The position numbers were made by a program, and so were the translations under genes. A stretch of DNA of 64,000 nucleotides from a bacterium BMS3Abin14 (GTDB taxonomy: Bacteria > BMS3Abin14). Under the pieces are notes generated by a model. That model worked only from the letters and a program-made list of their open reading frames with translations, ran no database searches and was not told the DNA's origin. Each line of letters starts with the position of its first letter. Within the stretch, counting starts at the first letter, position 1. The stretch lies in assembly GCA_002897695.1 (NCBI GenBank), contig BDTG01000041.1:24948-88947 (forward strand), read 5' to 3'. Positions 19,205 through 54,039 of the stretch are shown here, piece after piece.

Positions 19205-19367
19205 ATCTGTTGATGGACTCGCAAAAAGTCCATTCGTGGCTTTTTGCTCAACGGAAAGCGGAAAATGTCATTTTCACTTTCCTTACAAATCAACGACTTG
19301 CGCTGCAAGTCATCGATTTGGGCGCCCTTAAACGGGCGCGTTGATGACTTTTTGCGAAGTCATCAAC
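19205..19367. repeat. Dispersed structured repeat, copy A (oppB-oppC gap)
   Basis: This full-length-looking copy contains GCAAAAAGTCCATT, GGCTTTTTGCTCAACGGAAA and TTTTCACTTTCCT, shared with copy B at 53851-54039. It ends in two hairpins: GCGCCC/GGGCGC (19322-19339) and GTTGATGACTT/AAGTCATCAAC (19340-19367). The last hairpin overlaps the oppB stop codon. Confidence 0.8.
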
Positions 19368-19714
19368 TGTTGCTGATTCGCGGGTTGATGACAGCGTACA
19401 GAATGTCAACGATGAGATTGACCATCACGAAGGTGGCGGCCACGATCATGGTGCCCCCCTGGATAACCATGTAGTCCCTCTTGACGACCCCCTCGAACAG
19501 CCACTTCCCTACCCCCCCGCCAGGCGAAGACGGTCTCGGTCAGTATCGCCCCACCCAAAAGGATGCCGAATTGAAGACCGATTACTGTTATCACCGGGAT
19601 GAGACCGTTACGGAGGGCGTGTTTGAACACGACCCTGGTTCGGCTCAATCCCTTGGCCTTGGCCGTTCTGATATAGTCCTGGCGCAGGACCTCCAGCATG
19701 GAGGATCGAGTCAT
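19363..19714 (-). pseudogene. oppB: Peptide ABC transporter permease OppB/DppB, C-terminal remnant with frameshift
   Basis: Only the last third of oppB remains. It starts at [20 protein letters not shown] (the EAA-loop region), continues through [19 protein letters not shown] and LTETVFAW, and then loses frame in a run of seven G (19512-19518 on the complement). Removing one G restores [20 protein letters not shown] and an ending NPRISNS then TGA. The N-terminal two thirds are replaced by a transposase remnant. The single-base frameshift could be a sequencing or assembly error; the truncation cannot be explained that way so easily. Confidence 0.87.
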
Positions 19715-19715
19715 C

Positions 19716-20890
19716 TGCCTGAAGCGGCGTTTGCCCTGGCCGAACTTGCCTTCAATTGGAATCCGGTCAAGTTCATCCTGGCGCTGTTGGAGTTTTCTGT
19801 CCAGCATGTCTTGCGTGTTCTCGGGGGTGTTCTCGGGGGTTTTCTTCGGAGGACGCCCCAATGGTGGCCCGGACATCCTGATACTCCCCTGTTTCTTGCA
19901 GTATCTACGGTTGTCACGTGTTCGATAAATAGCATCGCAATGCACCGATTCCGGATAGCAGCCAAAGCGTTGTTTGTAAGTCTCGATCTGTTCAATCAGA
20001 TCACCGGACTCGTTAAAAGGATTCCAGTCAAGACGATCCAGGAACACGAAACCATTAACCAGACTGGCTGACAGTTTGGCACCGAATTCCGTCGGCGCGG
20101 ACGCTTTGCCGCGAACAATCGGACGGACATGTGGTTGGCTGATGCTGACAATCCGACCGCTGATCCGATGGCAGCAATTCTCATACATCCACTGTTGTTG
20201 GCGATAAAGTTCGTGGATCACCAGCAAGCTCTTGTATTGACGACGGTCAAGCAGGGTGAGTGACGTCTGTTCGGCAAGTTGTGCAATGGTGTTGAGATTG
20301 CGCCTGAGAAAGCGCAACTGTTGCCCCAGAACCTTACGGATCTGCCGCGCTGAATGCTTGCGGCTTTTGCTGTACTTCAAAAACAGACGACGAGCTTTTT
20401 GTCGATAGGTGCGCGGCTTCTGTTTGCCCGGCACGGACAAGGGCTTCGTTGACCTGGTTGAGTTGCTCCAGGCTGAAGCGATGGCGAAAATACACGAACA
20501 TTGGCGAGTCGAACGGTGCTTCATCGCGGAATTCGTGGAACCCGAGAAAGTATTGCAGATACGGGTTCTCACGAATCTGCTCCACCGCTTCTTCATCACT
20601 AACACCAAGGCGCTCTTTGATGATCAGGGCACCGAGAGCAACACGGGCAGGCTTGGCCGGAGCACCTTGACCGCTTTGAGAAAACTGTTTTTCGTAGAAC
20701 GCCTCGGCGGTATCCCAAGGGACCATACGCGCCAGGATAACCCAGCGGTTATCGCTTCTGAGCTTGCCACCGAAAGGAAGGTAGAAGTCTTCAAAAGCCA
20801 ATTGATTATCGGGTGTTGTTCGATACATTTGTGACCGCCATGTGCAAGGGTTTTAAGGCTAACCAACTATTTTTCTTGCACATATTAGCA
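19716..20890 (-). mobile_element. IS5/IS1182-like insertion sequence remnant
   Basis: The element consists of a transposase truncated at its C-terminus and some upstream sequence. The downstream IS end is absent: transposase codons run straight into oppB. Upstream of the transposase start a 9-bp inverted repeat (ATGTGCAAG at 20840-20848, CTTGCACAT at 20875-20883) could belong to the IS terminus. Without the second end I cannot define terminal repeats or a target duplication. Confidence 0.75.
19722..20828 (-). pseudogene. IS5/IS1182-family transposase, frameshifted and truncated
   Basis: The N-terminal frame begins YRTTPDNQLAFEDFYLPFGG, the DUF772-type start, and includes [20 protein letters not shown] and [13 protein letters not shown]. 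At about 20430 the reading changes by +1. The second frame carries [20 protein letters not shown] and the DDE core region ([20 protein letters not shown], then [20 protein letters not shown]). It ends at [11 protein letters not shown], about 90 residues short of a full transposase. An oppB segment follows without a stop. The frameshift plus the missing end make it inactive. Confidence 0.85.
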
Positions 20891-20944
20891 TGCAAACGCG
20901 GGGTTTGTCTAGTGTTTTCAGTAGGTTACGTATTTTTCAGCAAG

Positions 20945-21325
20945 CCCTACGTATGCCGGATCATTAAGGCGGACCCTACATTGCGTGCCACAAAAGTGAT
21001 CATCGTTACCGGAGACGACAGCGCTGCGACCCGGGAGCTTTATAAGGGATTGGGATGTGGCGCTGTTCTTAATAAACCCTTTACCAAAAGCGATATCAAT
21101 TCAACTGTGGGAAAAGTCCTCGGTGTCGGCACCAGACAGATTCACAGGGTCAACACTGTAATACCATGTCTCGTACGAATTGGGCCGGGAGGATATGACT
21201 GTCGAATCCTGAACATATCCGCTTCGGGAATGTATATTGAAATTGATTTTTTGCCTGAGCCGGGCCGGAATTTTGAAGTCGAGTTCATTGTTGACTATAT
21301 TGAAAATATCTCGCCTGACAGTTGA
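20945..21325 (+). pseudogene. Response-regulator receiver / PilZ protein fragment
   Basis: The fragment starts in the middle of a receiver domain: YVCRIIKADPTLRATKVIIV, TGDDSAATRELYKGLG, then the conserved Lys region AVLNKPFTKSDINS. A partial PilZ domain follows (RVNTVIPCLVRIG, YDCRILNISASGMYIEID). The phospho-acceptor half of the receiver is missing because IS sequence abuts it on the left. The end ISPDS looks short for PilZ. The intact gene would have been a c-di-GMP-binding or PilZ-output regulator. It marks the other edge of the deletion carrying the IS. Confidence 0.78.
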
Positions 21326-21715
21326 TGGACTTTGGGTTGGCAATTGTGGCATAAATGCAACCCCTTGCGTGTCGAGTGTTGCAAAATCAACACATGGCTG
21401 TTGTTATCCATCGCCGGCGAATTTGCCAGATTTCCGAATAGTTCATGTCCTCCACTCAGGTCATGGACAGATCGCGACGGCCTGGAAGAAGGACCATCCT
21501 CAGGAAATTCATGATTTTATCTTTATTTTACATCCAGTTATAATCATCATCACTCTTGTGCCGGCCCCATAATTTGCCCCCGGCCCTGTCCATACCGAAG
21601 GCTTGCCCGCAGGTTTTGAAGCCACAGCTGCGCTCGGCATGTTTATTGCTTCGCCTCACGTGTTGTCACGGATGAAACCACGTAACCGGCGGCCCAATAA
21701 AAGAGGAGATAAACG
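21326..21715. other. Intergenic region without recognisable gene
   Basis: About 390 bp between the receiver-PilZ remnant and a small frame with a good ribosome site. Short open frames exist but none shows domain motifs or a ribosome site. It may contain eroded 3' sequence of the PilZ gene. The last 18 bases hold AAGAGGAG for the next gene. Confidence 0.5.
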
Positions 21716-21964
21716 ATGATCAACCTGAAAAATAACCTGCTCAAAATGGGACGGACGATTTTTCACCAGCGCGACTCTCTCGGCCCCGTCAGCGGCATGT
21801 CATACTCCATGGGGCCAGGTTCCGATGATCCCGGCCCCAGCCCCACCCTGTTCTTCTATTGGCACGAGCCCATTATGGCGCCCAAGACAGAAATCCCCGT
21901 GAGGGATACCCGAGGCCCCCGGAGCTGGTTCGAAAAGTTAGGCCTCGCCCGGCAATCGGCCTGA
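21716..21964 (+). CDS. Small hypothetical protein
   Basis: An 82-codon frame with a strong ribosome site (AAGAGGAG, 7 nt before ATG), which is the main reason to accept it. The product starts INLKNNLLKMGRTIF, is rich in Gly, Pro and Ser in the middle, and ends RSWFEKLGLARQS. I recognise no family, signal peptide or membrane helix. It is convergent with btuC, 2 bp away. It could be a truncated remnant like its left-hand neighbours. Confidence 0.45.
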   Translation: MINLKNNLLKMGRTIFHQRDSLGPVSGMSYSMGPGSDDPGPSPTLFFYWHEPIMAPKTEIPVRDTRGPRSWFEKLGLARQSA

Positions 21965-21966
21965 TC

Positions 21967-22974
21967 CTACAGCCCTTCATTGTCCATCCCCTCCCCCCGG
22001 ACCAGCAGCCACACGAAAAACGGCCCCCCGAGGAGGGCTGTGATCACCCCGACCGGAATCTCGGCCGGGGCGATGATGGTCCGGGCGAACGTATCGCATA
22101 TTGTCAGGAAGGCGCCGCCGAAAAGAAGGGTGGCAGGGGCGAGGTAACGGTGATCCTGCCCTATGATCAGTCTGCAGATATGCGGTGACATCATCCCCAC
22201 AAACCCGATGGGGCCGCATACCGAAACTACCCCTCCCACCATCAGAGAGGCGGCAAAGAAGATTCCCCGGCGGACGGATTTGACATTAACCCCCCGGCTG
22301 GTCGCCATCTCCTCGCCTGTGGTCATCAGGTTCAGTTCGTTGGTCAGGTAAAGGATAATGAGGGCTCCCACTACCACGAACGGCAGCATGTCCAGGACGG
22401 ACCGGAATCCTACCACCTCCAGACCTCCCATGAGCCACCGGATAATATGAAAAGTCTGGGTAAAATCGCTGATGTACTGGATGAACAGGTTAACGCTGGA
22501 GAAGAAGAAGCTTATAGCCACACCGGCCAGCAGCATGGTTCCGGTGGAAAAACCGGATCGAAGGCGGGTCAGGCCATACACTAAAAGGACTGAAAGCATT
22601 GCTCCCATAAAGGCCGAAACGGAGATGCCCGGGATTCCCAGCAGGGCGGCCGGCAGTCCGAAACGGATATAGGCGGCCGCGCCGAGGGCGGCTCCGGATG
22701 ACACGCCCAGGGTAAAGGGGGTCGCGAGGGGGTTTCTGAAAAGCGCCTGAAAGGACATGCCGCTTACCGCCAAGCCGACTCCCCCCAGAAAGGCGACAAA
22801 CACCCTGGGTACGCGCAGCCTCCAGAATATCTCGCTCTCCCGGCTCCAGGAAGCGGGGTGTATGACCGCATCCAGCGGAATGGTCCGCATCCCTATCAGC
22901 GGCCCGATGATGAGCGCCGACACGGCCAGAAATGCCAAAATAATCAGGATAGCGGGTCGGCGGCCGAAGGTCAT
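21967..22974 (-). CDS. btuC: FecCD-type ABC permease, probably cobalamin importer BtuC
   Basis: A 335-residue inner-membrane permease of the vitamin B12/iron-siderophore class with about nine to ten hydrophobic segments. Family blocks include RLRVPRVFVAFLGGVGLAVS, FRNPLATPFTLGVSSGAALG, and GPIGFVGMMSPHICRLIIG with DHRYLAPATLLFGG, which contacts the ATPase. Its ATG overlaps the ATPase stop as ATGA. The substrate is taken as cobalamin because the operon starts with a cobalamin riboswitch and a BtuB-like receptor; from sequence alone a siderophore is possible. Confidence 0.88.
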   Translation of the reverse strand: MTFGRRPAILIILAFLAVSALIIGPLIGMRTIPLDAVIHPASWSRESEIFWRLRVPRVFVAFLGGVGLAVSGMSFQALFRNPLATPFTLGVSSGAALGAAAYIRFGLPAALLGIPGISVSAFMGAMLSVLLVYGLTRLRSGFSTGTMLLAGVAISFFFSSVNLFIQYISDFTQTFHIIRWLMGGLEVVGFRSVLDMLPFVVVGALIILYLTNELNLMTTGEEMATSRGVNVKSVRRGIFFAASLMVGGVVSVCGPIGFVGMMSPHICRLIIGQDHRYLAPATLLFGGAFLTICDTFARTIIAPAEIPVGVITALLGGPFFVWLLVRGEGMDNEGL

Positions 22975-23774
22975 TGCCGCATGACCTCATCCGGCAGAAC
23001 GATCATCCGACCCGACTGAGGGTGTGGGTAGAGGAAAAACCTCCTGTCGTAGATCGCCTCCAGGATGCTGTTGTCCATGAGGCCGGCCGGCTGCCCCGTA
23101 AACCGCACGGACCCCTCCTTCAGGGCAACGACCCGGTCGCCGTTTAGCACCGCGTCGTTGATGTCGTGCGTAACCGCGACTACGGTAATACCCTCCTCCC
23201 GGTTCAGCCTTGTCAGAATTCCCAGGACATCTTCTCCGTGCTTCGGATCGAGAAACGTCGTGGGCTCGTCGAGCAGAAGCACTTTCGCCCCCTGGGCTAA
23301 TGCCGCCGCGATGAGCACTCTCTGGCGTTCCCCTCCACTGAGAGTCCCCATGGCCCGGCGGTAAAACCTTTCAGTGCCTGTGATCTCCATGGCCCTTTTG
23401 ACCACCTCGTGGTCCCCGGGACTCACCGCCGAGAAGGGACTCAGGTGAGGATAGCGCCCCATGAGGACGAACTCACCCGCTGAAAATGGAAGCGTACGGA
23501 TATCAGCCTGCGGCACATAGCTGAGCAGGGTTGCCAGTTCTTTCTGGGAATATTCCTCCAACGGCCTGCCCGAAATTCTTATTTCCCCCCGGCCGCCGAT
23601 GTTGATCCGGTCCACACACTTCAGCAGCGTCGTCTTGCCCGCCCCATTGGGACCGATAACGCAGAGATACTCCCCCTCATATACGCACATGGAGACTTCA
23701 TGGAGGATAACCGTCCCGCCTATGCTGTAGGAGTAGTCGGCAATCTCTATTATCCTGCGCCCGCTTATTGTCAT
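22971..23774 (-). CDS. btuD: ABC transporter ATPase, probably BtuD
   Basis: A 267-residue ATPase of the BtuD/FepC class. Motifs: Walker A GPNGAGKTTLL, Q-loop LSYVPQAD, signature LSGGERQRVLIAAAL, Walker B KVLLLDEPTTFLD, and H-loop VVAVTHDIND. It overlaps btuF (ATGA at 23774) and btuC (ATGA at 22974), so all three importer subunits are coupled and probably made in equal amounts. Confidence 0.9.
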   Translation of the reverse strand: MTISGRRIIEIADYSYSIGGTVILHEVSMCVYEGEYLCVIGPNGAGKTTLLKCVDRINIGGRGEIRISGRPLEEYSQKELATLLSYVPQADIRTLPFSAGEFVLMGRYPHLSPFSAVSPGDHEVVKRAMEITGTERFYRRAMGTLSGGERQRVLIAAALAQGAKVLLLDEPTTFLDPKHGEDVLGILTRLNREEGITVVAVTHDINDAVLNGDRVVALKEGSVRFTGQPAGLMDNSILEAIYDRRFFLYPHPQSGRMIVLPDEVMRQ

Positions 23775-24715
23775 TCCCAGTGCGCCTCAGGGTGTATCAC
23801 TTCCGCCATCCTCTCCAGGAGAAGAATAAACCGGGGTCCCGGCACCACCACGTAATCCTGGTTGAGTACGTAGACCCGGCCTTTGCTCACCGCGGTAAGC
23901 CCGGGGATGGAACGCCACTTCTCCAACATCTTTTCGTCAGTCTGTGGGTCCGTCACGTCGGGAACCATCTCGATGATCACCTGGGGATTGAGCCTGGCGA
24001 CTCCCTCGGCGGAGAGGGCCGGGAACTTCAGGGTGTCCTTTGCATATGCGTTTATCCCCCCGGCCATGGAGATGAGCTCATCGTAAAATCCGTCCCGTCC
24101 CGAGATATAGACCGCTCCGGCCGCTCCGGTCTGAAGACTCCTTCCCACCGCCACCATGACCGTGGGTTTATTGAGGTCCTTTGTCATGGCCTTTACACGC
24201 TCGATCCTCTTTTCCGTTTCCATCAGGATCTTATCGGCTGTCTTCTTCGTCCCGGTCTTTTCACCAATGAGCCGTATTGATTCCATGATCCCATCAACGC
24301 TGCTGTGGTCCACCGTCAGGGTTTCGATCCCGAGCCGCTTCAGATATTCACGTGGTTTATCGTGCTCCTTCATCAGGACAACCAGGTCCGGTGCGGCGGT
24401 GATGATCGCCTCATAATTGATGTCGAAGTATCCCCCGATCTTGGGCTTTTCCAGCGCCTCCGGCGGATAGTCGCAGTACCGTGTAACCCCGACGACCCTG
24501 TCACCCAGGCCAAGCGAGAAAAGCACCTCTGTGATGCTGGGGGCCAGAGATATGATGCGCTCGTAATGCAGAGGTTGATGGGGCGGCGGGGCGGCGGGGC
24601 GATCCAGACGGACGATGGTTGGATTCTGAGGCTCACCTTGGCCGAAACCATACAGGAGGAAGCCCCCGGCGGCCAGAAGGGCAATAGCTGTGATGAGGAT
24701 CAGGAGGCGCCGCAT
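23771..24715 (-). CDS. btuF: Periplasmic substrate-binding protein, probably BtuF
   Basis: A 314-residue class III binding protein. The start at 24715 has GGGGA 6 nt upstream; an ATG five codons earlier is possible. A hydrophobic leader (LLILITAIALLAAGGFLLYG) without a clear lipobox serves as signal or anchor. The mature part starts YERIISLAPSITEVLFSLGL and continues VVGVTRYCDYPPEAL and KIGGYFDINYEAI, the BtuF/FepB signature. Coupled to btuD and btuC. Cobalamin as ligand follows from operon context. Confidence 0.88.
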   Translation of the reverse strand: MRRLLILITAIALLAAGGFLLYGFGQGEPQNPTIVRLDRPAAPPPHQPLHYERIISLAPSITEVLFSLGLGDRVVGVTRYCDYPPEALEKPKIGGYFDINYEAIITAAPDLVVLMKEHDKPREYLKRLGIETLTVDHSSVDGIMESIRLIGEKTGTKKTADKILMETEKRIERVKAMTKDLNKPTVMVAVGRSLQTGAAGAVYISGRDGFYDELISMAGGINAYAKDTLKFPALSAEGVARLNPQVIIEMVPDVTDPQTDEKMLEKWRSIPGLTAVSKGRVYVLNQDYVVVPGPRFILLLERMAEVIHPEAHWE

Positions 24716-24716
24716 G

Positions 24717-27394: not shown

Positions 27395-27442
27395 TTCATC
27401 ACTCCTCGCCCGGCCATGCAATGTAAAAACTTCCCGGAGACG

Positions 27443-27477
27443 AAAAAATCCCGGACCTCTTTATCGAGATCCGGGAT
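27443..27477 (-). terminator. Intrinsic terminator between riboswitch and btuB
   Basis: On the minus strand ATCCCGGA-TCTC pairs with GAGG-TCCGGGAT around a GATAAA loop, followed by six T. It lies between the cobalamin aptamer and the btuB start. That is the position expected of the expression platform of a transcription-terminating riboswitch. Confidence 0.88.
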
Positions 27478-27540
27478 GCCGTTTTTCATCCGTCTTTGAC
27501 AGCGGTCAGACCCTGGCCGCGAGGGTTCCGTTCGCTCTGT

Positions 27541-27718
27541 CCAACAGGCAGGTCTTCTGGCTTCCGGATTACCCTACTCGCCGCGCCTTCCCGCCCTTCG
27601 ACAAGCGCAGGACTAACCCTGGACTTCCTTTGAGCAGTGACTAATTGCGGCTTTCGTCCCCGGTTACAGCGGCGGGTCCGCGACGGATTCTCACCGTCTT
27701 CCCTTGGCCTGTTAAATC
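27541..27718 (-). promoter_or_regulatory. Cobalamin (B12) riboswitch aptamer
   Basis: The minus strand carries the conserved cobalamin elements in order: AACAGGCCAAGGGAA, GGTGAGAATCCG, CGCTGTAACCGGGGACGAAA, the B12-box-like AGTCACTGCTC, and finally GAAGCCAGAAGACCTGCCTG. AACAGG and CCTGTT at the two ends form P1. The terminator follows 64 nt later. Bound adenosylcobalamin would be expected to stop transcription of btuB-tonB-btuFDC. Confidence 0.95.
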
Positions 27719-27857
27719 AACAGTAGGGCACGATCGTCGGGATGTCAAGAATGGCGAGGCCTCAACGCATGGATCTTTATCTAACAGGGATGAAGGGGAT
27801 AGAGGGGATAAACCTGCCATAAAACCCTATTTTGCCTTGTTTGCAGTGAGGTACGCA

Positions 27858-28580: not shown

Positions 28581-28614
28581 GGATCTCCGGTTATTCGCAG
28601 GATTATCCGATTCC

Positions 28615-29808
28615 TCAATATCTTACAGCTATCACACCGCCGATGGTGACGGCAAGGGCCAAAGCAGCCCCGGCGTAAAAGGGCCCCGGGATGCCCCACC
28701 ATGTGTAGGCAATCCCCATAACCATGGGGCCGGCAGTCTGACCCATCCTGAGCACCATACCGTTAACCGACATGAGAACCCCCCGATGTTCGATGGGAGC
28801 AAAACCGGCCATGAGGGACATTATGGCCGGTATGTTCATCCCGTGGCCAAAGCCGAAGATCACGGCCGGAAGTACGTAAAGGGGCACGGAGGGCATGGCC
28901 GGGATGAGAAGGAGGGCCGCTCCATAGAACAGAAAAGCTGCCTTGATCAGGTTTTTCTCGCCGAATTTCGCGGACAGCCTTCCCATCTGTGTCGAGGTCA
29001 GGGCGGTACTCACCGACATGGCCGACATGAGCAGCCCGATGGTCATGGTTGAGGCTCCGAATCGGCCATCCACCAGAAGGGGGAAAAACGTCAGCAGGGA
29101 ACCGTAAAGGATGATAAAGGTGGCGATGCTCACCAGAAAAACTCCCAGGACCCCCCTGTTTTTCAGAACTTCCCATGCTCCCTTCAGGTAGTCGGAAAGT
29201 TTCTGGTGACCTTCAGGCTCAGGATTTTCAAGATGGAAAAGGGCCGCATATGCTACCGGCAGCGCAAGGATGGGCAGGAAAAAAGGGTAGTTCCACCCAA
29301 AAAGAGCCATGGCGCCCCCAATGGCCGGGTAGCTCGCGGTACCCACCGAAAGAACGCTGGAGTTGTAGCCCATGGCCATGGCCCTCTCCTTGCCGGAGAA
29401 CAGGTCCCCGATGATGGTCCCGGTGAGGGAGGAGAGGGCGGCAGCCCCAACCCCCTGAAAGAACCTCAGGAACAGCAGGGCCTTGAAGCTTCCGGCAAAT
29501 CCGCACCCGCTGCCGGCCAGGCCGAAAAGGAGAAGGGAAGGTATGAGGATCTTTTTTCTTCCGTAACGGTCCGAAAGGACGCCGAGGAACGGAGCCAGGA
29601 TCATGCCCGGGAAGGTAAAGATGGTGATGAGAAGCCCCACCTGATGCGGTTTGATTCCCAGATCCTGGATGATCCGTGGAAATGCGGGGGTGATGCTTGC
29701 CACGCTCAGGACCGCCATGAGAGTCACGCAGTAGATAATGCGGAGGTTCCGGTCGAGCCAGAGTCTGCCCTTCCACGCGCGGGCAGCCGCGTCCGGTCCG
29801 GAGTTCAA
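28615..29808 (-). CDS. Major facilitator superfamily transporter
   Basis: A 397-residue, 12-helix inner-membrane carrier. The loop 2-3 signature is clear (GVLSDRYGRKKILIP), and a weaker repeat is seen as GRLSAKFGEKNLIK in the second half. The start is TTG at 29808 with GAAGGT 6 nt upstream; no in-frame ATG gives a full helix 1. The family resembles drug or metabolite exporters, but the substrate cannot be read from the sequence. Confidence 0.87.
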   Translation of the reverse strand: MNSGPDAAARAWKGRLWLDRNLRIIYCVTLMAVLSVASITPAFPRIIQDLGIKPHQVGLLITIFTFPGMILAPFLGVLSDRYGRKKILIPSLLLFGLAGSGCGFAGSFKALLFLRFFQGVGAAALSSLTGTIIGDLFSGKERAMAMGYNSSVLSVGTASYPAIGGAMALFGWNYPFFLPILALPVAYAALFHLENPEPEGHQKLSDYLKGAWEVLKNRGVLGVFLVSIATFIILYGSLLTFFPLLVDGRFGASTMTIGLLMSAMSVSTALTSTQMGRLSAKFGEKNLIKAAFLFYGAALLLIPAMPSVPLYVLPAVIFGFGHGMNIPAIMSLMAGFAPIEHRGVLMSVNGMVLRMGQTAGPMVMGIAYTWWGIPGPFYAGAALALAVTIGGVIAVRY

Positions 29809-29827
29809 CCGAAACCTTCATTGTTTG

Positions 29828-29880
29828 ATAGGGTCGTAAAAAGTCCAGTCATGATTTTTTTTGCAAAGCCGTCAATTTTC
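29828..29880. repeat. Dispersed structured repeat, short copy F
   Basis: GGGTCGTAAAAAGTCCAGTCATGA followed by TTTTTTTTGCAAAGCCGTCA. It has both hallmark ends of the repeat family but no middle. It lies in the 390-bp divergent gap between the MFS gene and glnB. The rest of that gap holds only the sigma-54 promoter and no gene. Confidence 0.65.
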
Positions 29881-30125
29881 TCCACGAGATGGTCTCATTG
29901 CCGCAAGTTTACTTCAACGCGGGGGCATATACCAGATACAACCGGCCTGCCGGGAAAAGAGTGTATTGCCTGAAATACAGGCAGCACACTCAGGTTCAAT
30001 GCCATATTTTCGTCCAATGGAGTTACCGCAGAATGCCCCTTATTCCCTTTGCCGTTGTACCGAATAAATAGCCATCTATTTGGAAAATAAAGAAATTCAG
30101 ATTGGCAAACCCCCTTTGGAAAAAA

Positions 30126-30140
30126 TGGCACGGGCCTTGC
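30126..30140 (+). promoter_or_regulatory. Sigma-54 promoter of glnB-amtB
   Basis: TGGCACGGGCCTTGC matches the -24/-12 consensus TGGCACG-N4-TTGC exactly. Transcription would start near 30152, about 50 nt before glnB. This predicts nitrogen control by an NtrC-type activator; I could not identify the enhancer site with confidence. Confidence 0.9.
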
Positions 30141-30197
30141 CCCTATGTGGGCGGCCCTGACGACGGGACCCAACAACCAATTGGGAGGGAGACTTAA

Positions 30198-30539
<342 letters not shown>

Positions 30540-30658
30540 AACGGTCATTGACGCTTGGACGCGGCAAAAAAATCCGCGGTGCATGCAGACCTTACTCAAA
30601 TGCAGGGCCGCGGCTAGTGAACCGGAGTGAGAAATCATTTAATACGGAGGGTTCAAAA

Positions 30659-31957: not shown

Positions 31958-31981
31958 TCTTTTCAGTTCCAGGTTCCGGGT

Positions 31982-32020: not shown

Positions 32021-32029
32021 AGTGTTTCT

Positions 32030-32070: not shown

Positions 32071-32075
32071 CGGTT

Positions 32076-32516: not shown

Positions 32517-32762
32517 TCTTTTCCTCCTGTCTGGTTTTGTTTCTGCAACCCCGGTGCAAATGGCCGGGGTTTTCGTAATGGTTTCACTTTAACGCAATTT
32601 TGCGGTGAAGCAAAGTAATGGCTCACCGCGACAAGACACGTTGTTTTACCACAGTGCAGCCGCTTGCAGACTGCACCACAGGGTTTTAAACAGGATCATC
32701 CTGGAAATACGTACTCACTACGCATAAAAGCTGGATTTAACAGGGATGAAGGTCGCTCTTTT

Positions 32763-32790
32763 CCCCCTCACCTCGGTCCTCTCCCCCCAG
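32763..32790. repeat. 28-nt dispersed repeat, copy 1
   Basis: CCCCCTCACCTCGGTCCTCT continues to CCCCCCAG. The reverse complement of 63427-63454 is identical except for one base, in an intergenic region 31 kb away. Confidence 0.75.
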
Positions 32791-34608: not shown

Positions 34609-34698
34609 TGTCTCATCATCTTTGGCAGGGTCGTCAAAAGTTCTGTTAAGGATATAGTTTCAAAACGTGTGTGTCTTTTATTACCACACGGCGCCCAA

Positions 34699-37440: not shown

Positions 37441-37490
37441 ATGTCACCTCCCTGGTATTAGGACAGTGTTCCCCGCACTATTTTTGATAG

Positions 37491-37559
37491 AGCCGTTAAA
37501 AGTCCACCTGTCTGCATGCAAGCACAGGCAGGTTCGCGACTTTTTGCAAAGTCATCACG
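37491..37559. repeat. Dispersed structured repeat, copy D (ftsA-ftsZ gap)
   Basis: TTAAAAGTCCACCTGTCTGC, then a near-palindromic middle (GCATGCAAGCACAGGCAGG), then GACTTTTTGCAAAGTCATCA. The middle is nearly the same as in copy B at 53851. It begins directly after the ftsA stop in the direction of transcription and fills most of the ftsA-ftsZ gap. Confidence 0.8.
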
Positions 37560-37560
37560 T

Positions 37561-38793
37561 TTAGATAAAATCCTTCAGCCAATCCCTCATCTTTGCCAGT
37601 ATCTTGTCAAAAATCCTCGATTCATTTGTGCCAAAGACCCCCTCCCCGCCGTGGGTTGCCCCGTACTTGATCAGCCCGACTCCGGTAGCGTACATGGGAC
37701 TTTTAACCACATCCACCAGGCCGCCGACATCTCGAGGATATCCAACCCGGACAGGCATATTAAAGACCTGTTCCGCCAACTCGGCCATGCCGCTCATGAT
37801 TACCGTTCCACCGGTCAGGACGATGCCGGAAGCTATGCGGTCATTGTGTCCCGATTTGAGTATTTCCCGGTTTATGAGTTCGAAGAACTCTTCCGCTCTC
37901 GGTTCGATAATTTCCGACAGGAACCTCCTTGAAACCTTCCTCGGCTTATGGCCGCCAACGCCCATTACCTCTATTTCCTCATCCTCGCCGACCATTTCGG
38001 TGAGAGCGCAGCCGTACTCCTTCTTAATTCTCTCCGCTTCAGTCGCCGGGCTCCTGAGACCATAGGCGACATCGTTGGTCAGGTTAATGCCTCCCAGAGC
38101 GAGAACGGCGGTCTGTCTTATGCTGCCGGCGCCAAATATTGCCAGATCAGTGGTCCCGCCCCCGATATCAACCAGCGCAACCCCAAGTTCTTTCTCCTCA
38201 TCAGTGAGAACTGCGCTTGCGGCGGCAAGAGGTTCGAGGACAATATCCAGGACGTCCAGACCCGCACGATTGCTGCTTTTGATAATGTTCTGTGCGGACG
38301 TTACGGCGCCCGTTACTATATGGACCTTGGCCTCAAGGCGCACACCTGACATGCCCAGGGGATCGACGATACCGTCCTGGTCGTCCACAATGAACTCCTG
38401 GGTCAGGGTGTGGATAATCTCCCGATCCAGCGGCATGGCAACCGCCTGGGCCGCGTCGATGACCCTTTCAATGTCTTTTTTGGTAACCTCCCTGGTCTTG
38501 ACCGCAACCACCCCGTGGCTGTTGAACCCCTTGATATGGCCGCCGGCAATCCCGACATAAGCTCCCTGGATCGGCACCCCGGCCATGAGTTCGGCCTCCT
38601 CGACAGCCTTTTTGATGGAATCCACGGTGGCGTCGATGTTGATCACCACCCCTTTTCGGAGGCCTTTGGACGGGGTGGTGCCGATCCCTATGATCTCGCA
38701 CCATCCTTTCTCGTCTACGGCAGTGACTACGATACATATTTTCGTAGTCCCTACATCCAACCCTACAACGATACGCTCCCTACCCTTGGCCAT
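37561..38793 (-). CDS. ftsA: Cell-division protein FtsA
   Basis: Actin-like protein, 410 residues, that anchors FtsZ filaments to the membrane. Phosphate 1 motif GLDVGTTKICIVV, the 1C SHS2 region with TREVTKKDIERVIDAAQA, phosphate 2 LVDIGGGTTDLAIF and the adenosine motif GIVLTGGTVIMSGMAELA are present. The C-terminal amphipathic helix ILAKMRDWLKDFI is the membrane anchor. Overlaps ftsQ by 14 bp. Confidence 0.97.
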   Translation of the reverse strand: MAKGRERIVVGLDVGTTKICIVVTAVDEKGWCEIIGIGTTPSKGLRKGVVINIDATVDSIKKAVEEAELMAGVPIQGAYVGIAGGHIKGFNSHGVVAVKTREVTKKDIERVIDAAQAVAMPLDREIIHTLTQEFIVDDQDGIVDPLGMSGVRLEAKVHIVTGAVTSAQNIIKSSNRAGLDVLDIVLEPLAAASAVLTDEEKELGVALVDIGGGTTDLAIFGAGSIRQTAVLALGGINLTNDVAYGLRSPATEAERIKKEYGCALTEMVGEDEEIEVMGVGGHKPRKVSRRFLSEIIEPRAEEFFELINREILKSGHNDRIASGIVLTGGTVIMSGMAELAEQVFNMPVRVGYPRDVGGLVDVVKSPMYATGVGLIKYGATHGGEGVFGTNESRIFDKILAKMRDWLKDFI

Positions 38794-39664: not shown

Positions 39665-39666
39665 GG

Positions 39667-42837: not shown

Positions 42838-42849
42838 ACCACTGCTCTC

Positions 42850-46462: not shown

Positions 46463-46467
46463 CCGGC

Positions 46468-47559: not shown

Positions 47560-48964
47560 CCCCCTCGGCAGGAACTGGGGCCGGGTTCAGAAATTTTTCC
47601 ATAACTCTTTCAATCCTGGCGGCCCGGGACGCCTTGAAGAGCACCCACACCCCCGGCGTCAGGAGCCCGGCAAGCGCATCAACTGCGGCGGCGTCCCCTG
47701 AGCATTTAAAGATATTTTTTCTCGGCATCCCCGATTCAGTTGCGCCTTTACAGATCAATTCAGCCGCCGGGCCTACCGCCACCAGATAGTCGACTTCAAG
47801 CTCTCCCACTCGTCGGCCCACGAGAACGTGCCCCTGTTCGAAGTACTCCCCCAATTCCTTCATCTCGCCGAGCACGGCGACGGTGACACCCTCGCTTCTC
47901 AATGCCGCGAGATTCTCAAGGGATGTCCCTACGGACAGGGGGTTGGCATTGTAGGAATCGTCTATGAAGTTGATCCCCGGTCGGGGGTTGAGGATCCCGC
48001 CTCTTCCGTTCTGGGGTTGCCAGGAATCAAGACCACTCGTCATGTCTTCGAGGGATATACCCAGAGGCAGTGTTACGGCGGCGGCGGCCAGGGCATTCTC
48101 CACAAAATGCCTGCCGAAGCCCCTGATGTGCACGCGCGCCCTTCCCAGGGGGGTCTCCATTAAAAAACTGGTCATGATCCCCAATGAGATCTCCGATGCC
48201 GTCACCTCGCCGGTATCCAGCCCATAGGTGACGACTCTGCAGTTCGCCCGATCACGCAATTCCTCATACCATTGGCTGTCCCCGTTCAGGGCGCACCACC
48301 CGCTGGAAGGCAATGCATCGAGAACTGCGGCCTTCTCGCGCACAAGGGACATGGGATCCCCAAACCCCTCCAGGTGGGCCCAGCCAAGCCTGGTAATGAC
48401 CGCCGCCTCCGGCTGAAGGATGGACGTCAGCATGGCGATCTCCCCGGGGGCATTGGAACCAAGCTCAAGGACCGCACACCGGTGATAATCGGCGAGCCCC
48501 AGGAGAGAAAAGGGAAGCCCGATATGGTTATTGAGATTACCTGCATTTTTCAGACATGGCCCCATGGTGGAAAGGATGCATGCCGTCATCTCCTTGATAG
48601 TTGTCTTTCCGACACTCCCCACAACCGCGAGAGCGGGGATGGGGTGGCGCTCTCTCCAGAACGAAGCCAGTGACTGCAGCGCCCGGATCGTATTTTTCAC
48701 AACGATGAGCGGTATGGGTGGTATCTTTGACGCCACCGGTGGGAGATCACCATCCACCACTGCGAGCGCTGCACCTGCTTTCCATGCATCCCGAAGGAAA
48801 TCATGGCCGTCATGAACTTCACCCCTGATCGCTAAAAACACCTGGCCGGAGGTAACAGTCCGGCTGTCGATGGATATACCCGTAAAAAGCTGATGTCCCG
48901 CGGCGCTGGTTATGAGAGTCCCTCCTGTACCGGCCAGAACGTCTTTCAGGCTGAACCGTATCAC
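47552..48964 (-). CDS. murF: UDP-MurNAc-tripeptide:D-Ala-D-Ala ligase
   Basis: Attaches D-Ala-D-Ala to the stem peptide, 470 residues. SIDSRTVTSGQVFLAIRGE and HDGHDFLRDA in the substrate domain, ATP loop GSVGKTTIKEMTACIL, NLNNHIGLPFSLLGL, and DDSYNANPLSVGTSLENLAA are characteristic. The GTG start overlaps the murE stop as GTGA. Confidence 0.97.
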   Translation of the reverse strand: MIRFSLKDVLAGTGGTLITSAAGHQLFTGISIDSRTVTSGQVFLAIRGEVHDGHDFLRDAWKAGAALAVVDGDLPPVASKIPPIPLIVVKNTIRALQSLASFWRERHPIPALAVVGSVGKTTIKEMTACILSTMGPCLKNAGNLNNHIGLPFSLLGLADYHRCAVLELGSNAPGEIAMLTSILQPEAAVITRLGWAHLEGFGDPMSLVREKAAVLDALPSSGWCALNGDSQWYEELRDRANCRVVTYGLDTGEVTASEISLGIMTSFLMETPLGRARVHIRGFGRHFVENALAAAAVTLPLGISLEDMTSGLDSWQPQNGRGGILNPRPGINFIDDSYNANPLSVGTSLENLAALRSEGVTVAVLGEMKELGEYFEQGHVLVGRRVGELEVDYLVAVGPAAELICKGATESGMPRKNIFKCSGDAAAVDALAGLLTPGVWVLFKASRAARIERVMEKFLNPAPVPAEGGD

Positions 48965-50427
48965 CTCGCCGCCTCCATGACAGCGGCGATGGCGGCTGCG
49001 ACCTCATCCACATCCGAGAACGGCAGGACCTGATCTCCCGTGGTCTGATAATTTTCATGCCCCTTCCCGGCCACCACCAGGATATCATCCGGCCCGGCCA
49101 TGCGGGATGCCAGTTTTATTGCCTCGCGGCGATCGGCAACACGGCGGACATTCGCCCTGCAGTGGGCCATCCCCGCCACAATTTCGTCGATAATGGAGTC
49201 CGGGTCTTCACTACGAGGATTATCGGAGGTAACGATAACCTGGTCGGCAAGTTTCCCGGCGATGCCCCCCATGATGGAGCGTTTGGACCTGTCCCGGTCG
49301 CCGCCGCAGCCGAAAACGACAATTGCTTTGCCCCTTGTGATCATTCGGACGTTTTCAAGGAGATTTTTCAGTGCGTCAGGGGTATGAGCGTAATCCACTA
49401 TGGCCGCATAGGGCTGTCCTTTGTCGACTCTTTCAAAACGTCCCGGGACCATGGTGACATCCTGAATACCCTCTGAAATCTTTCCGGCGTCCACACCCAG
49501 AAGCCCGCATACAGCCACCGCAACCATGATATTATAGACGTTAAAATGCCCGGGCAGGGTCGTGTTCACGGGTATCGTGCCCCAGGGGGTTTCCAGGACG
49601 AACCGGCTGCCCCAGCTCCATCCGTCAATCTCGCCCCTGATCCGCACATCTCCGGCTTTCATCCCGACGGTGAGAATCGGGCCATCCGCCTCTCTGTATA
49701 ACCTGGCCCCATAACCGTCATCGATGTTCACCACGCCGCTGACTGTTGAAGGATCTGTAAAGAGGCGTGCTTTCACCTGGAAGTAATCCTCCATGTCGGA
49801 ATGAAAATCGAGATGGTCCTGCGTCAGGTTGGTGAATGCGGCCACCTCCATGCGCAATCCATCCACGCGGTGAAGGACCATCGCATGGGAAGATACCTCC
49901 AGAATGCATGCCTTGCACCCTGATGAGACCATGCTCGCCAGATATGCATTTAAATCAGGGGACTCAGGGGTCGTTCTTGACGCGCTCAACACCTCGCTGC
50001 CGATGAGATATTGCACTGTGCCGATAAGGCCCGGCCTGAATGCCGACGAATTCAGAATTCCGTGAATTATGTAGGCTGTTGTAGTTTTTCCGTTCGTGCC
50101 TGTTATTCCCACCAGCTTCAGGGCGGCTGATGGATCGTGATAGATGTTTCTTGAGGCCAGGGCCATGGCGGCCCGAACATCATCCGCCAGGACGAACGTC
50201 GTCCCCTGGACCGGGGATACATGATGGCCGGTTAAAAATACTTCGGCTCCCTTCTCCATGGCATCCCCGATAAAGGTGGCTCCATCGAATCTTTCCCCGG
50301 TAACGGCTGCAAAAAGGTCTCCAGGACGAACACGCCTTGAATCGCAACGGATCCCCGTCACATCAACCTCCCCCGCGCCAACGATTCTGACCCCGGGCAC
50401 ACCGTCCATGACATCGCGAATTTTCAA
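48961..50427 (-). CDS. murE: UDP-MurNAc-L-Ala-D-Glu:meso-DAP ligase
   Basis: Adds the third stem residue, 488 residues. ATP loop GTNGKTTTAYIIHGIL, substrate loop ASRTTPESPDLNAYL, LEVSSHAMVLHRVDGL. The residue-specificity motif DNPRSEDPDSII is the DNPR form, which selects meso-diaminopimelate rather than lysine, so the wall is A1-gamma type. The TTG start has GAGG about 9 nt upstream. A repeat copy lies between it and ftsI. Confidence 0.97.
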   Translation of the reverse strand: MKIRDVMDGVPGVRIVGAGEVDVTGIRCDSRRVRPGDLFAAVTGERFDGATFIGDAMEKGAEVFLTGHHVSPVQGTTFVLADDVRAAMALASRNIYHDPSAALKLVGITGTNGKTTTAYIIHGILNSSAFRPGLIGTVQYLIGSEVLSASRTTPESPDLNAYLASMVSSGCKACILEVSSHAMVLHRVDGLRMEVAAFTNLTQDHLDFHSDMEDYFQVKARLFTDPSTVSGVVNIDDGYGARLYREADGPILTVGMKAGDVRIRGEIDGWSWGSRFVLETPWGTIPVNTTLPGHFNVYNIMVAVAVCGLLGVDAGKISEGIQDVTMVPGRFERVDKGQPYAAIVDYAHTPDALKNLLENVRMITRGKAIVVFGCGGDRDRSKRSIMGGIAGKLADQVIVTSDNPRSEDPDSIIDEIVAGMAHCRANVRRVADRREAIKLASRMAGPDDILVVAGKGHENYQTTGDQVLPFSDVDEVAAAIAAVMEAAR

Positions 50428-50440
50428 TTTCCGGCAACCT

Positions 50441-50500
50441 CGTTAAAAGTCGTCTCTCGCCGCGCATCTCCTGCGTGGCGGACTTTTTGCACATTCATCA
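50441..50500. repeat. Dispersed structured repeat, copy E (ftsI-murE gap)
   Basis: CGTTAAAAGTC opens and GACTTTTTGCACATTCATCA closes the unit, around a divergent hairpin middle (CGCCGCGCATCTCCTGCGTGGCG). Its end contains the ftsI stop codon. Confidence 0.7.
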
Positions 50501-52480
50501 CGTCTTGATCCTCGGCATGAGAGAAAGCCTGATTTTCTGTCCCACATTTTCCCCTGGCGCAGGGTCCTGGCGAATCACTACCCCGGTACCGGAAACATCA
50601 ATACCCGAGTTCAGGCCGGAAAGTACCTGGAGGGCCTCTCTTAAAGTCAGGCCCTGGAGATCCGGCATGGCAGGGGAACCGGAAGCGTCTACTTCATGAT
50701 CCGCCCGGGCAAGTTTCGTTCCCTCGGGAATCGGGGGATATTTTCTGTCTTTTTCGGGAACAGCGGGTTCAACCTTGAGATACTCCAACGTTTTTCCAAC
50801 TATTCTGGCCCAGATGGGCGCGGCAACCACACCACCGTATATATCGGTTTGAGGTTCGTCGACCACAACGATCACGGTTATGACCGGCTTATCAGCGGGG
50901 GCAAACCCCACGAACGAGGCCACATAGGCGTCTTCGGAATACCGGCCTTCCCTGGAGGAAAACTTCTGCGCCGTGCCCGTCTTTCCCGCGACCTTGTAAC
51001 CTGGTATGGCAGCCCGGACACCCGACCCGCCTAGCCTGACCACAGACTCCATCATCCCGGTCATCTTCTTTGCGGTAGACTCGCTGATCACCTGACGAAT
51101 TATTTCAGGCCGGTTCTTCAGGACAGACTGTCCCGATGAATTGACAATATTTTCAACCAGAAACGGACGGAGGAGACGTCCCCCGGTTGCGATAACGTTG
51201 ATGGCGTTTACCATCTGCAACGGGGTCACGGCGATCCCCTGACCGAAGGATGCGTTTGCGGTATCAACCTGCCGCCATGTGGCAGCATCCCTCATCACAC
51301 CCTTTCTTTCTCCGGGCAACAGAAGCCCGACACGACTTTTAAAACCGAAACGAACCGCATAATCGGCAAGTCGAGTCCTGCCAAGCTTAAGGCCGATTTT
51401 ACTTGCCCCTATATTGCTGGATTTCTGGACGATACCCTTCAGGGTCAACCATCCGTGTGGAACATGGTCCTTGATAAAGATATTCCCAATCTCGAATTTT
51501 CCATTTTCACAGAAGAGGATATCCATATCATCAAAGACCTTTTCCTCCAAAGCCGCGGAAACTGTGATGATCTTGAAAGTGGAACCGGGTTCGTACGTGA
51601 AATTAATTGCGCGATTCCGGTAATTAGCTGAAGAAAATCTTTGAAATTCATTGGGGTTAAAGCCCGGAAAGCTCGCCATGGCCAGAATTTTACCGGTCGC
51701 TGACTCGATAACGATTGCCGCGGCCCCCTTGGCGGATGCTCCGGCGGCTCCGGCGTTGAGGGCCTCCTCTGTGAAGTACTGTATGGTTCGATCCAGGGTG
51801 AGATGAACGGTTGACCCCATCGTGGGTTTCAGGTTCCAGGAGTCGTCAGGTGAATATATCCGTCCCATGGCATCCCTTTTAAGAACCCTGACTCCCCCAG
51901 CTCCTTTAAGCTGGTCATCCAGCGAGTCCTCAAGTCCTTCCAGCCCGCGGTCCGTGCCGACAAAGCCCAGAACAGGCCCTGCGAGATCAAGGCTCGGATA
52001 GTACCGCCTTGACTCCTTCTGAATCCCCATCCCGGGAAGGTCCAGCGCCCGCACTTTTTCAGCCTTCTCAGGAGAGATTTTCCGCACCAGCCACACAAAT
52101 CCCGATCCGGTTTTCATCCTGGCAAGAAGATGGCCGCCGTCCACATCTACCGCCTTTCCAAGCAGTTGAGCTTCTAATCCCTTGTCGGTGATATCTCCAC
52201 GAAAGGCGTATACGGATGACACGGGAACACTGACTGCCAGGCGCTGCCCATTCCGGTCGAGGATGGCCCCACGGCGTGGGTTTATGCTGACCGTCATTCG
52301 GTTCTGACGGATGGCGCGTTCGCGAAGGACTTCCCCGTGAAGGATCTGAAGGTAGAAGGCCTTGAGCATGGGGAGCAGCAGAAGCAGCGGTATCAGGATT
52401 CCCAGAAACCTGATGCGGCCGCGCACCCCGTCTGTCCAGGAACTGCCCCGGTCGCCCCGTTTTCTCATTGGATCATCCAT
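50498..52480 (-). CDS. ftsI: Septal peptidoglycan transpeptidase FtsI (PBP3) with PASTA domain
   Basis: Class B penicillin-binding protein of about 660 residues. Membrane helix FLGILIPLLLLLPMLKAFYL, dimerisation domain with RGAILDRNGQRLAVS, and a transpeptidase domain with STFK (YEPGSTFKIITVSAAL), SSN (KSSNIGASKIGLKLG) and KTG (VAGKTGTAQKF). A single PASTA domain ends the protein (MPDLQGLTLREALQVLS), a feature of some deltaproteobacterial and Gram-positive forms. The start is uncertain: ATG 52480 or 52468 (GGATG 6 nt upstream); an earlier one falls in repeat DNA. Confidence 0.94.
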   Translation of the reverse strand: MDDPMRKRGDRGSSWTDGVRGRIRFLGILIPLLLLLPMLKAFYLQILHGEVLRERAIRQNRMTVSINPRRGAILDRNGQRLAVSVPVSSVYAFRGDITDKGLEAQLLGKAVDVDGGHLLARMKTGSGFVWLVRKISPEKAEKVRALDLPGMGIQKESRRYYPSLDLAGPVLGFVGTDRGLEGLEDSLDDQLKGAGGVRVLKRDAMGRIYSPDDSWNLKPTMGSTVHLTLDRTIQYFTEEALNAGAAGASAKGAAAIVIESATGKILAMASFPGFNPNEFQRFSSANYRNRAINFTYEPGSTFKIITVSAALEEKVFDDMDILFCENGKFEIGNIFIKDHVPHGWLTLKGIVQKSSNIGASKIGLKLGRTRLADYAVRFGFKSRVGLLLPGERKGVMRDAATWRQVDTANASFGQGIAVTPLQMVNAINVIATGGRLLRPFLVENIVNSSGQSVLKNRPEIIRQVISESTAKKMTGMMESVVRLGGSGVRAAIPGYKVAGKTGTAQKFSSREGRYSEDAYVASFVGFAPADKPVITVIVVVDEPQTDIYGGVVAAPIWARIVGKTLEYLKVEPAVPEKDRKYPPIPEGTKLARADHEVDASGSPAMPDLQGLTLREALQVLSGLNSGIDVSGTGVVIRQDPAPGENVGQKIRLSLMPRIKT

Positions 52481-52483
52481 TTC

Positions 52484-52560
52484 GCCAGGGTCGTAAAAAA
52501 TCCACTCATGGCTTTTTCCCAACAAAAAGCGAAAAATGCCATTTTCATTTTCCTCTCAAA
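52484..52560. repeat. Dispersed structured repeat, copy C (ftsL-ftsI gap)
   Basis: CAGGGTCGTAAAAAATCCAC, then CATGGCTTTTTCCCAACAAA and TGCCATTTTCATTTTCCTCT. It matches the first half of copies A and B but is truncated where it meets ftsL. It overlaps the last codons of ftsL and the ftsI leader. Confidence 0.75.
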
Positions 52561-52883
52561 TCTTCCGGAATCATCATTACCTGTCCCGGACCAGGGTCCT
52601 TCATCCCCATGCGCTCCCGTGCAATATGCTCGATCCGTTCGGGCCTGTTTAACATGGCCCTCTCGATCTCAAGTTCCCGGTTGAGGCCGGCTTTGCGGGC
52701 CTCAGCCTTTTCCAGATCCCTTACCTGATATCCCAGGTCGATAACGTCGACACCGCGCCATGCTGTTACGAAAATACCGCCGCCGACCAGAACGGAGATC
52801 AGCAGAACAATTGTCAATTCCCTGAGCCCGGGCGCCGCGATATGCTGCTCACGCTTTGCTCTGACTCCGGCGACTGCATTCAC
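52545..52883 (-). CDS. ftsL: Cell-division protein FtsL-like
   Basis: A 112-residue bitopic protein: short cytoplasmic part, membrane helix (LTIVLLISVLVGGGIFVTAW), then a periplasmic coiled coil (DLGYQVRDLEKAEARKAGLN) ending in the FtsL-type ERIEHIARERMGMKDPGPGQ. Position between rsmH and ftsI is diagnostic for this poorly conserved gene. ATGA overlap with rsmH. Its last codons are in repeat copy C, so the C-terminus may be repeat-derived. Confidence 0.9.
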   Translation of the reverse strand: MNAVAGVRAKREQHIAAPGLRELTIVLLISVLVGGGIFVTAWRGVDVIDLGYQVRDLEKAEARKAGLNRELEIERAMLNRPERIEHIARERMGMKDPGPGQVMMIPEDLRGK

Positions 52884-53830
52884 GGGATGATCCTCTCAAA
52901 AACACGCATCTTGGCGCTCCTGCTCCTGGGGTTGGCGCGGATCTCATCCTCACCCGGCACGATGGGGCGCCTTGTCACGACCTTCCCTTCCGGCTTTTCT
53001 CCGCATACGCACAGGGGAAAATACGGGGGGCATCGGCAGGGGTTTTCCATATCCCTGAATTCCCTTTTTACAATTCTGTCCTCCAGCGAATGGAAAGAGA
53101 TGACAACCATACGTCCACCTGAGACCAGATACTCAACGGAATCGGGAATGGCGCTTGCCAGAGATCCCAATTCATCGTTAACCTCAATACGCAAAGCCTG
53201 AAAGGATCGTGTCGCGGGATGAATCCGGAAACGATCCCTTCCTCCCATGGCGGCCGCGATGATTCCAGCCAACTCCGTGGTGCTGCGGATCCGTCCCCTT
53301 TGACGGCTTCTGACTATGGCCCTGGTTATTGCGGCTGACTGCCTTTCCTCCCCATAGCGAAACAGGATTTTTTTCAGGTCCGGTGGGGAATATTCATTGA
53401 CCACTTCCTCGGCCGTGAGGGGGCCGGACGGGTCCATGCGCATATCCAGAGGACCGTCGTACTGGAAGGAAAAACCCCTTCTTCCAGTCTCGAGCTGTCT
53501 GCTCGAAACCCCAAGATCCATGATAATCCCGTCCACCATATCTACCCCAGCTTTTTTCAGCTCGACCCCTGCATTTTTGAAATCGGCCTGGTAAAGATGC
53601 ACCCTCCCTTCAAATTCCCGGAGCCTTTCCCCGGCCAACTTCAGGATTTCAGGATCTCTGTCCAGGCCGACAACCTGTGTGCCCGCGCATCGAGTCAGGA
53701 TGGCTGCGGAGTGCCCTCCTTCTCCGACCGTCCCGTCCAGATACACCCCTCCCTCCCGGATTCGAAGCTCCCTGAGGAGTTCATCCAGCAGGACCGGTAT
53801 GTGCCCTTGCCCGGCCTCGTAACCTGCCAT
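52880..53830 (-). CDS. rsmH: 16S rRNA (cytosine-1402-N4)-methyltransferase
   Basis: SAM-dependent methyltransferase (MraW), 316 residues. The ATG at 53830 has AGGGA upstream and gives the usual start before HIPVLLDELLREL; a longer reading extends into repeat DNA. Motifs: LDGTVGEGGHSAAIL for SAM, IIMDLGVSSRQLE, GRRGFSFQYDGPLDMRMD, and VISFHSLEDRIVKREF. Second gene of dcw. Confidence 0.97.
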   Translation of the reverse strand: MAGYEAGQGHIPVLLDELLRELRIREGGVYLDGTVGEGGHSAAILTRCAGTQVVGLDRDPEILKLAGERLREFEGRVHLYQADFKNAGVELKKAGVDMVDGIIMDLGVSSRQLETGRRGFSFQYDGPLDMRMDPSGPLTAEEVVNEYSPPDLKKILFRYGEERQSAAITRAIVRSRQRGRIRSTTELAGIIAAAMGGRDRFRIHPATRSFQALRIEVNDELGSLASAIPDSVEYLVSGGRMVVISFHSLEDRIVKREFRDMENPCRCPPYFPLCVCGEKPEGKVVTRRPIVPGEDEIRANPRSRSAKMRVFERIIP

Positions 53831-53850
53831 TATTCCCTGTTGGCATCCAT

Positions 53851-54039
53851 TGACATGGTCGCAAAAAGTCCACTTGTCTGCGTGCAACGCACAGGCAGGT
53901 TCATGGCTTTTTGCTCAACGGAAAGCGAAAAGTGTCCTTTTCACTTTCATCACAAATCAACAACTTGCGTTCCAGGCCATTGATTCAGGCGCCCTCATGG
54001 ATGATGGCTTTGTAAAAAGTCATCATCCATGAGGGTGCC
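53851..54039. repeat. Dispersed structured repeat, full copy B (mraZ-rsmH gap)
   Basis: This is the longest copy, 189 bp. It has GGTCGCAAAAAGTCCACTTG, a GTCTGC...GCAGG middle, TTTTTGCTCAACGGAAAGCG, TCCTTTTCACTTTCAT, and a terminal hairpin. The hairpin pairs 53988-54006 with 54021-54039 over 19 bp with one G-T. It lies between the mraZ stop and rsmH. Confidence 0.85.

Follow-up and report, generated by a model that had tools for sequence, protein, structure and literature searches.

The 64,000 nucleotide stretch of contig BDTG01000041.1 from bacterium BMS3Abin14 analysed here, hereafter the window, carries a series of short hairpin-forming repeats between genes of its opp and dcw clusters, which raises the question of whether such sequences are mobile parasites or regulatory elements used by their host. 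A first-pass annotation described them as a dispersed family of structured repeats, of either repetitive extragenic palindromic (REP) or Miniature Inverted-repeat Transposable Element (MITE) type, that might adjust mRNA stability or differential expression, for example of ftsA relative to ftsZ. They are very probably copies of a 155 bp non-autonomous MITE with ends that an IS1182-like DDE transposase probably recognises, a selfish element from which any benefit to the host would arise as a by-product.

Several families of short, non-coding bacterial MITEs, including ERIC, Correia/NEMIS and RUP, share inverted-repeat ends, target duplications, high copy number and hairpins that form in co-transcribed mRNA; the duplications of ERIC and Correia elements are of the TA type. 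The family in the window resembles all three in these respects, but is distinguished by duplicating 4 bp (ANNT), by having ends that match an IS1182-like insertion sequence (IS), and by retaining five separate stem-loops with compensatory changes across phyla.

Anatomy of the repeat family

Searches of the host's own genome with copies A and B (Table 1) returned 45 and 43 matches respectively, and a covariance model identified 62 matches in its 2.28 Mb, a few of which are reverse-strand echoes. The family is therefore genuine and far above chance genome-wide, and the proposal of a dispersed structured repeat, which had been staked on the existence of further copies, was borne out. Some of the other copies are 89-90% identical to copy A, and an alignment of 54 full copies spans 155 positions with a mean column identity of 85%.

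The element has the characteristics of a MITE: it is non-coding, shorter than 600 bp and dispersed in many copies, with at least 150 model matches in relatives; it has terminal inverted repeats, TGATNNNNTCGYAAAAAGTC, at both ends; it generates a target duplication of fixed length, 4 bp; and its ends are common to an IS1182-like element (L306:1240-2906), a truncated copy of which is present in the host's own genome (L315). In the sense orientation, it comprises hairpin 1 (TGATGACTT-loop-AAGTCATCA), hairpin 2 (GCGCCC..GGGCGC), hairpin 3 (CAAATCAATGACTTG..CAAGTCATTGATTTG), hairpin 4 (GGAAAGTGAAAA..TTTTCGCTTTCC) and hairpin 5 (GCAAAAAGCC..GGACTTTTTGC), after which GACCCTATCA closes the element. 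Stop codons are present at both ends (TGATGA and TGATAG). The strong hairpins originally noted, including the long stem of copy B, were likewise confirmed.

Rfam searches with 13 loci gave no match to the element above any family's gathering score, and no description of the family was found in Rfam or in the open-access literature searched. Carriage of the element by phage or plasmids was looked for and not found. Some copies have a palindromic insert of approximately 29 bp, CCTGCCTGTGCGTTGCACGCAGACAGG, in the loop of hairpin 5 (window positions 53875-53905 and 37510-37540, and loci L008, L022 and L024), which resembles a second, nested repeat.

Target sites and past movement

Across 111 copies with intact ends, the flanking sequences repeat over exactly 4 bp, and this duplication is perfect in 56 of them, compared with 4.1 expected from shuffles; flank identity at this length was 0.71, against 0.435 ± 0.017 in shuffled data (z 16). 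With the element removed, the target is the palindrome TYA[ANNT]TRA. Past movement is evident from filled and empty sites in the window and in the sister species (G001). The sister genome has a copy at a site that is empty in the window (Table 1), flanked by direct repeats of 4-5 bp that match imperfectly, ATACC/ATACA, where the window has ATATC. In the reciprocal case, copy E fills a site in the window that is empty in the sister species, whose ftsI and murE genes directly adjoin (L199:14212-14214).

These observations separate the two types of repeat suggested at the outset. A family of REP elements or Bacterial Interspersed Mosaic Elements (BIMEs), moved by a REP-associated tyrosine transposase (RAYT, a Y1 transposase), would likewise be palindromic, intergenic and near gene 3' ends, and the inverted palindromic terminal units found after stop codons fit such an origin. 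Yet REP sequences are palindromes of 20-40 nt that do not duplicate their target, while the repeat studied here is a 155 bp unit with a 4 bp target duplication. The search for a RAYT that had been advised recovered from the host's own genome one decayed, stop-ridden IS200-like pseudogene, lacking the ends of the repeat, and one sub-threshold Y1_Tnp fragment; no working Y1 or RAYT gene was found there. Given the target duplications and the lack of an intact RAYT in this genome, an REP origin was rejected as extremely improbable, whereas the MITE half of the suggestion stands on the inverted-repeat ends, the 4 bp duplications, the filled and empty sites and the partner IS.

A candidate partner transposase

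Searches for DDE_Tnp_1 and rve domains in ten copy-bearing genomes identified 23 loci. Among them, a 1,667 bp element in genome G005 (L306:1240-2906) has MITE-type ends on either side of a 520 amino acid open reading frame (ORF), at distances of 18 bp and 86 bp. The encoded protein contains the DUF772 and DDE_Tnp_1 domains that are characteristic of the IS1182 family; it matches the IS1182 profile NF033551 (E 1.6e-33) at 116 bits, below the curated cut-off of 270, and is therefore termed IS1182-like only. Relatives of this IS occur in the host's own genome (G000:C25, truncated) and in G008, and G001 has a fragment of one. The IS ends, TGATGGCTTCGCAAAAAGT-ATCA, correspond to those of the MITE, TGATGACTTCGCAAAAAGTCATCA, with the outer sequence starting at TGAY in each; ends of 20-24 bp are common to IS and MITE in three genomes, and are exact from TGAY inward. 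The flanks of the IS also fit ANNT, the target preference of the MITE. On the basis of these common ends and targets, the IS1182-like transposase probably mobilizes the MITE: it would recognise TGATNNNNTCGYAAAAAGTC through a DUF772 and DDE_Tnp_1 protein, then cut and paste the element into a palindromic TYA-ANNT-TRA site, duplicating the central 4 bp.

A number of observations weigh against this assignment. The partner IS was detected in only four of 11 searched genomes of the host's family (G002 not among the 11), being whole in one and absent from the copy-rich G004; the whole copy has no matching 4 bp duplication (ACCT against ATAT); and the interior of the MITE is unlike that of the IS. 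It is conceivable, though improbable, that another transposase moves the MITE and that the IS1182-like element has merely captured or copied its ends, which would accommodate the lack of a clear duplication around the whole IS, and also the finding that neither the copy-rich genomes G004, G006 and G010 nor the searched Zetaproteobacteria and Desulfobacterales gave an IS1182-like match. Such capture accords less well with the exactness of the common ends in three genomes and with the flank preference shared by IS and MITE, and the rve-type and other DDE_Tnp_1 loci examined did not have these ends on both sides.

Other candidates were rejected individually. None of the rve-type transposases examined had MITE ends on both sides; an IS1182-like IS in G053 (L301) matched the ends on one side and has unrelated inverted repeats of its own; and long terminal inverted repeat pairs with matching duplications, in the stretches examined, contained ordinary genes such as panC.

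Within the IS1182 family, IS1272 has been reported to target inverted-repeat structures and to take the place of the target stem-loop, leaving no duplication (PMC5678879). The system described here resembles this family in its transposase profile match and palindromic target preference, and differs in generating a 4 bp duplication and in the sub-threshold score of its putative transposase.

Conservation of the hairpins

The five stem-loops are paired in 97.8% of alignment cells. Both sides have changed in 16 of 49 pairs, distributed over all five helices (7.1 in shuffles), and in 66 cells (13.5 in shuffles); none of 500 shuffles reached either value, and in slid versions pairing dropped to 40-52%. 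On a tree, 27 terminal-branch events were coordinated changes from one Watson-Crick pair to another, compared with about one expected, by a rough estimate, were the changes independent. Compensatory stem changes, which the first-pass annotation had proposed as a test of the family, are thus abundant.

Such covariation can be explained either by selection or by template switching at palindromes. The 5' flank of copy B (window 54002-54042) is now the reverse complement of its own hairpin 2 region, which is not true of the sister copy, and the lengthening of its stem is plausibly a template-switch event. The hairpins would form in mRNA or in single-stranded DNA, and either selection acting while the element transposes or template switching would keep them paired; in mRNA, they may block exonucleases at the ends of cistrons as a by-product.

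On the sense strand, G-U mismatches exceed A-C mismatches (110 against 22 cells), an excess that is smaller on the tree (103 against 55). This imbalance was rejected as proof of selection for RNA structure on the sense strand, as unpaired sites exhibit a similar asymmetry of C>T over G>A. It appears unlikely that the 155 nt interior constitutes a structured RNA module spread across phyla by transposition, with hairpins selected as RNA and copies retained in the sense orientation between cistrons; if true, a single parasite family would seed many operons with the same post-transcriptional arrangement.

Position and orientation relative to genes

Positions were compared with genes called by a simple, home-made hexamer-based finder, and the genome-wide statistics were compiled from fetched loci and selected stretches rather than whole annotated genomes. 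At a distance of 10 nt or less from a stop codon there are 32 copies, against 17.6 ± 2.9 expected, in agreement with the bias towards gene 3' ends previously suggested; for starts, the same limit gives nine, against 17.5 expected. The proximity to stops is probably in part a consequence of TAA and TGA fitting the TYA[ANNT]TRA target and of both element ends carrying stop codons; AT-rich targets and the avoidance of coding sequences and starts would, together with these end-borne stops, leave copies in intergenic regions near the ends of genes.

Between co-directional genes, 72 copies run with transcription and 27 against it (p = 7e-6), most strikingly in G001 (28:4) and G004 (15:6), with weaker ratios in other sets. 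Target preference applied to empty intergenic regions predicts 0.86:1, slightly more antisense than sense insertions, so the bias must arise after, or apart from, the choice of site. Terminator-like signals are present on the antisense strand of 78 of 111 copies and on the sense strand of 52, making the purging of polar antisense insertions, which would cut off downstream genes, the simplest account of the sense bias and a likely one. Convergent regions had seemed strongly avoided when 75 copies were available (19 divergent, two convergent), but this was discarded, as the larger set gave a non-significant 25:9 (p 0.2 against target preference).

The same data might be explained by a structured RNA cassette, MITE in origin, that the host has come to use, kept in the sense orientation within operons because its hairpins stabilise the mRNA of the upstream cistron or adjust how the following gene is translated. 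The 72:27 orientation bias, the closeness to stop codons, the compensatory changes in all five stems, the G-U excess and the orthologous positions of copies B, C and D in two species are each compatible with such a role. However, the G-U excess shrinks on the tree and is echoed at unpaired sites, and orthologous insertions are explicable by plain inheritance; copies C and D are decayed deletion derivatives of elements that are longer in the sister species, copy E is unshared, and G002, a complete genome, has no copy at all. A host-used cassette is considered unlikely, and a role in mRNA stability or ftsA/ftsZ expression is not favoured, benefits such as the tuning of ftsA against ftsZ being unproven. 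Copy number also varies widely between close relatives, from none (G002) through 36 (G045) and 62 (the host, G000) to at least 150 (G001 and G004). No host need for the copies is evident, and effects on operon expression are possible as side effects.

The element is most likely a selfish MITE, sense copies of which are tolerated since antisense copies are more terminator-like. Against this stand the absence of an orientation bias from the Zetaproteobacteria sample (3:3) and from one mixed set of metagenome-assembled genomes (MAGs; 9:8), the crude consensus scan from which the terminator counts derive, and the dependence of gene starts and stops on the simple finder.

Distribution of the family

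Of the 11 other genomes of the host's family, ten carry copies; a set of 29 more distant genomes has none. The exception within the family is G002, 2.78 Mb in size, whose relatives have tens to hundreds of copies; G045 and G008 are apparently one and the same genome. In Zetaproteobacteria, the covariance model gave 50-105 matches in three genomes and four in M. ferrooxydans PV-1; Mariprofundus erugo P3, which is in culture, has 55 model matches. A pattern scan of GTDB genomes detected the end hairpin in several groups. These were Zetaproteobacteria, Mariprofundus among them; the MAGs SZUA-204, ZodW_Metabat.265, PFL40 and CSMAG_1715, which apparently belong to the host's family; the MAG SZUA-178; and Deltaproteobacteria, including Desulfobacterales. 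Zetaproteobacterial copies retain the full 155 bp design; in Desulfobacterales, the same ends bound other short elements, 127-193 bp long, that differ in their interiors.

The MITE has thus dispersed across one family of uncultured bacteria, in which it reaches at least 150 copies per genome, and into iron-oxidising Zetaproteobacteria, where its structured core is nearly unchanged; the genomes of Desulfobacterales are filled with short relatives that have these ends. Together these would form a large group of MITEs linked to an IS1182-like transposase, and the hundreds of natural hairpin insertions between cistrons constitute a set in which effects on operon expression could be tested.

In the Desulfobacterales elements (L269-L288; G053, G049, G050 and G048), the four variable bases following TGAT are usually the same at both ends of a copy and differ between copies, hence co-varying as an inverted repeat, possibly through end-to-end homogenisation or pairing.

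Copies within the window

The copies in the window are decaying (Table 1); the genes flanking copy A were identified using Pfam. Copies A to E all run with transcription, the first-pass annotation having noted a shared orientation relative to transcription for A, B, D and E. Its further claim, that these four start at or just after a stop codon, is accurate for copy D, which starts 3 nt past the ftsA stop, and copy E, which overlaps the ftsI stop and supplies the stop codon through TGATGA; it is approximate for copy B, approximately 21 nt past the mraZ stop, and copy A, 40 nt beyond the codon that ends the broken oppB ORF. It would not literally apply to copy C, which overlaps the 3' end of a short gene before ftsI, probably ftsL. 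Among the short copies it listed, that at 29828 has both ends, and those at 10491 and 34627 amount at most to degenerate end remnants.

Table 1. Coordinates of repeat copies, remnants and an empty target site in the window
Feature	Position	Strand	Description	Evidence
Copy A	19211..19365	-	Full-length, 155 bp; between broken oppB ORF and oppC	Profile E 2.8e-46
Copy B	53851..54042	-	Full-length; between mraZ and rsmH	Profile E 5.4e-29 over 53851-54025
Copy C	52486..52562	-	3' half of element	Profile E 2.2e-11
Copy D	37485..37557	-	Deletion derivative of ~70 bp keeping both ends; between ftsA (stop 37561-37563) and ftsZ	Sequence
Copy E	50432..50500	-	Deletion derivative of ~70 bp keeping both ends; at ftsI stop, before murE	Sequence
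Partial copy	29826..29889	-	Weak fragment with both ends; upstream of 28615-29808	Profile E 1.9e-4; sequence
Possible right-end remnant	10486..10505	-	TIR-like (terminal inverted repeat-like) TGGCAGGGTCGTAAAAAATC, degenerate 20 bp	Weak
Possible right-end remnant	34623..34642	-	TIR-like TGGCAGGGTCGTCAAAAGTT, degenerate 20 bp	Weak
Empty site	55979..55988	.	Filled in sister genome G001, L199:7661-7794	blastn, sequence comparison

The sister species has an orthologue of copy B (L199:10529-10680), two tandem full copies at the position of copy C, and a 134 bp copy at that of copy D (L200:7079-7212). Copy B itself has the 29 bp palindromic insert in the loop of hairpin 5, and its 5' stem is lengthened to about position 54042.

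Outside the element end, copy C and both end remnants are alike over approximately 16 bp (10475-10505, 34612-34642 and 52472-52502), so they may be part of another repeat or represent related insertions. The oppB gene adjoining copy A appears to have been disrupted by an insertion sequence, as its reading frame has an IS5-like transposase with a frameshift (DUF772; NF033578) fused into it (19717-20830, minus strand). Elsewhere in the window are a perfect 26 bp inverted repeat at 8210 and 8275 (8210-8300), a pair of 32 bp inverted repeats, CCCTCACCTCGGTCCTCTCCCCCCAG, 97% complementary and 30 kb apart (32759-32790 and 63427-63458), and a cobalamin riboswitch (27530-27727, minus strand) preceding genes for a TonB-dependent receptor and an FecCD-type permease.

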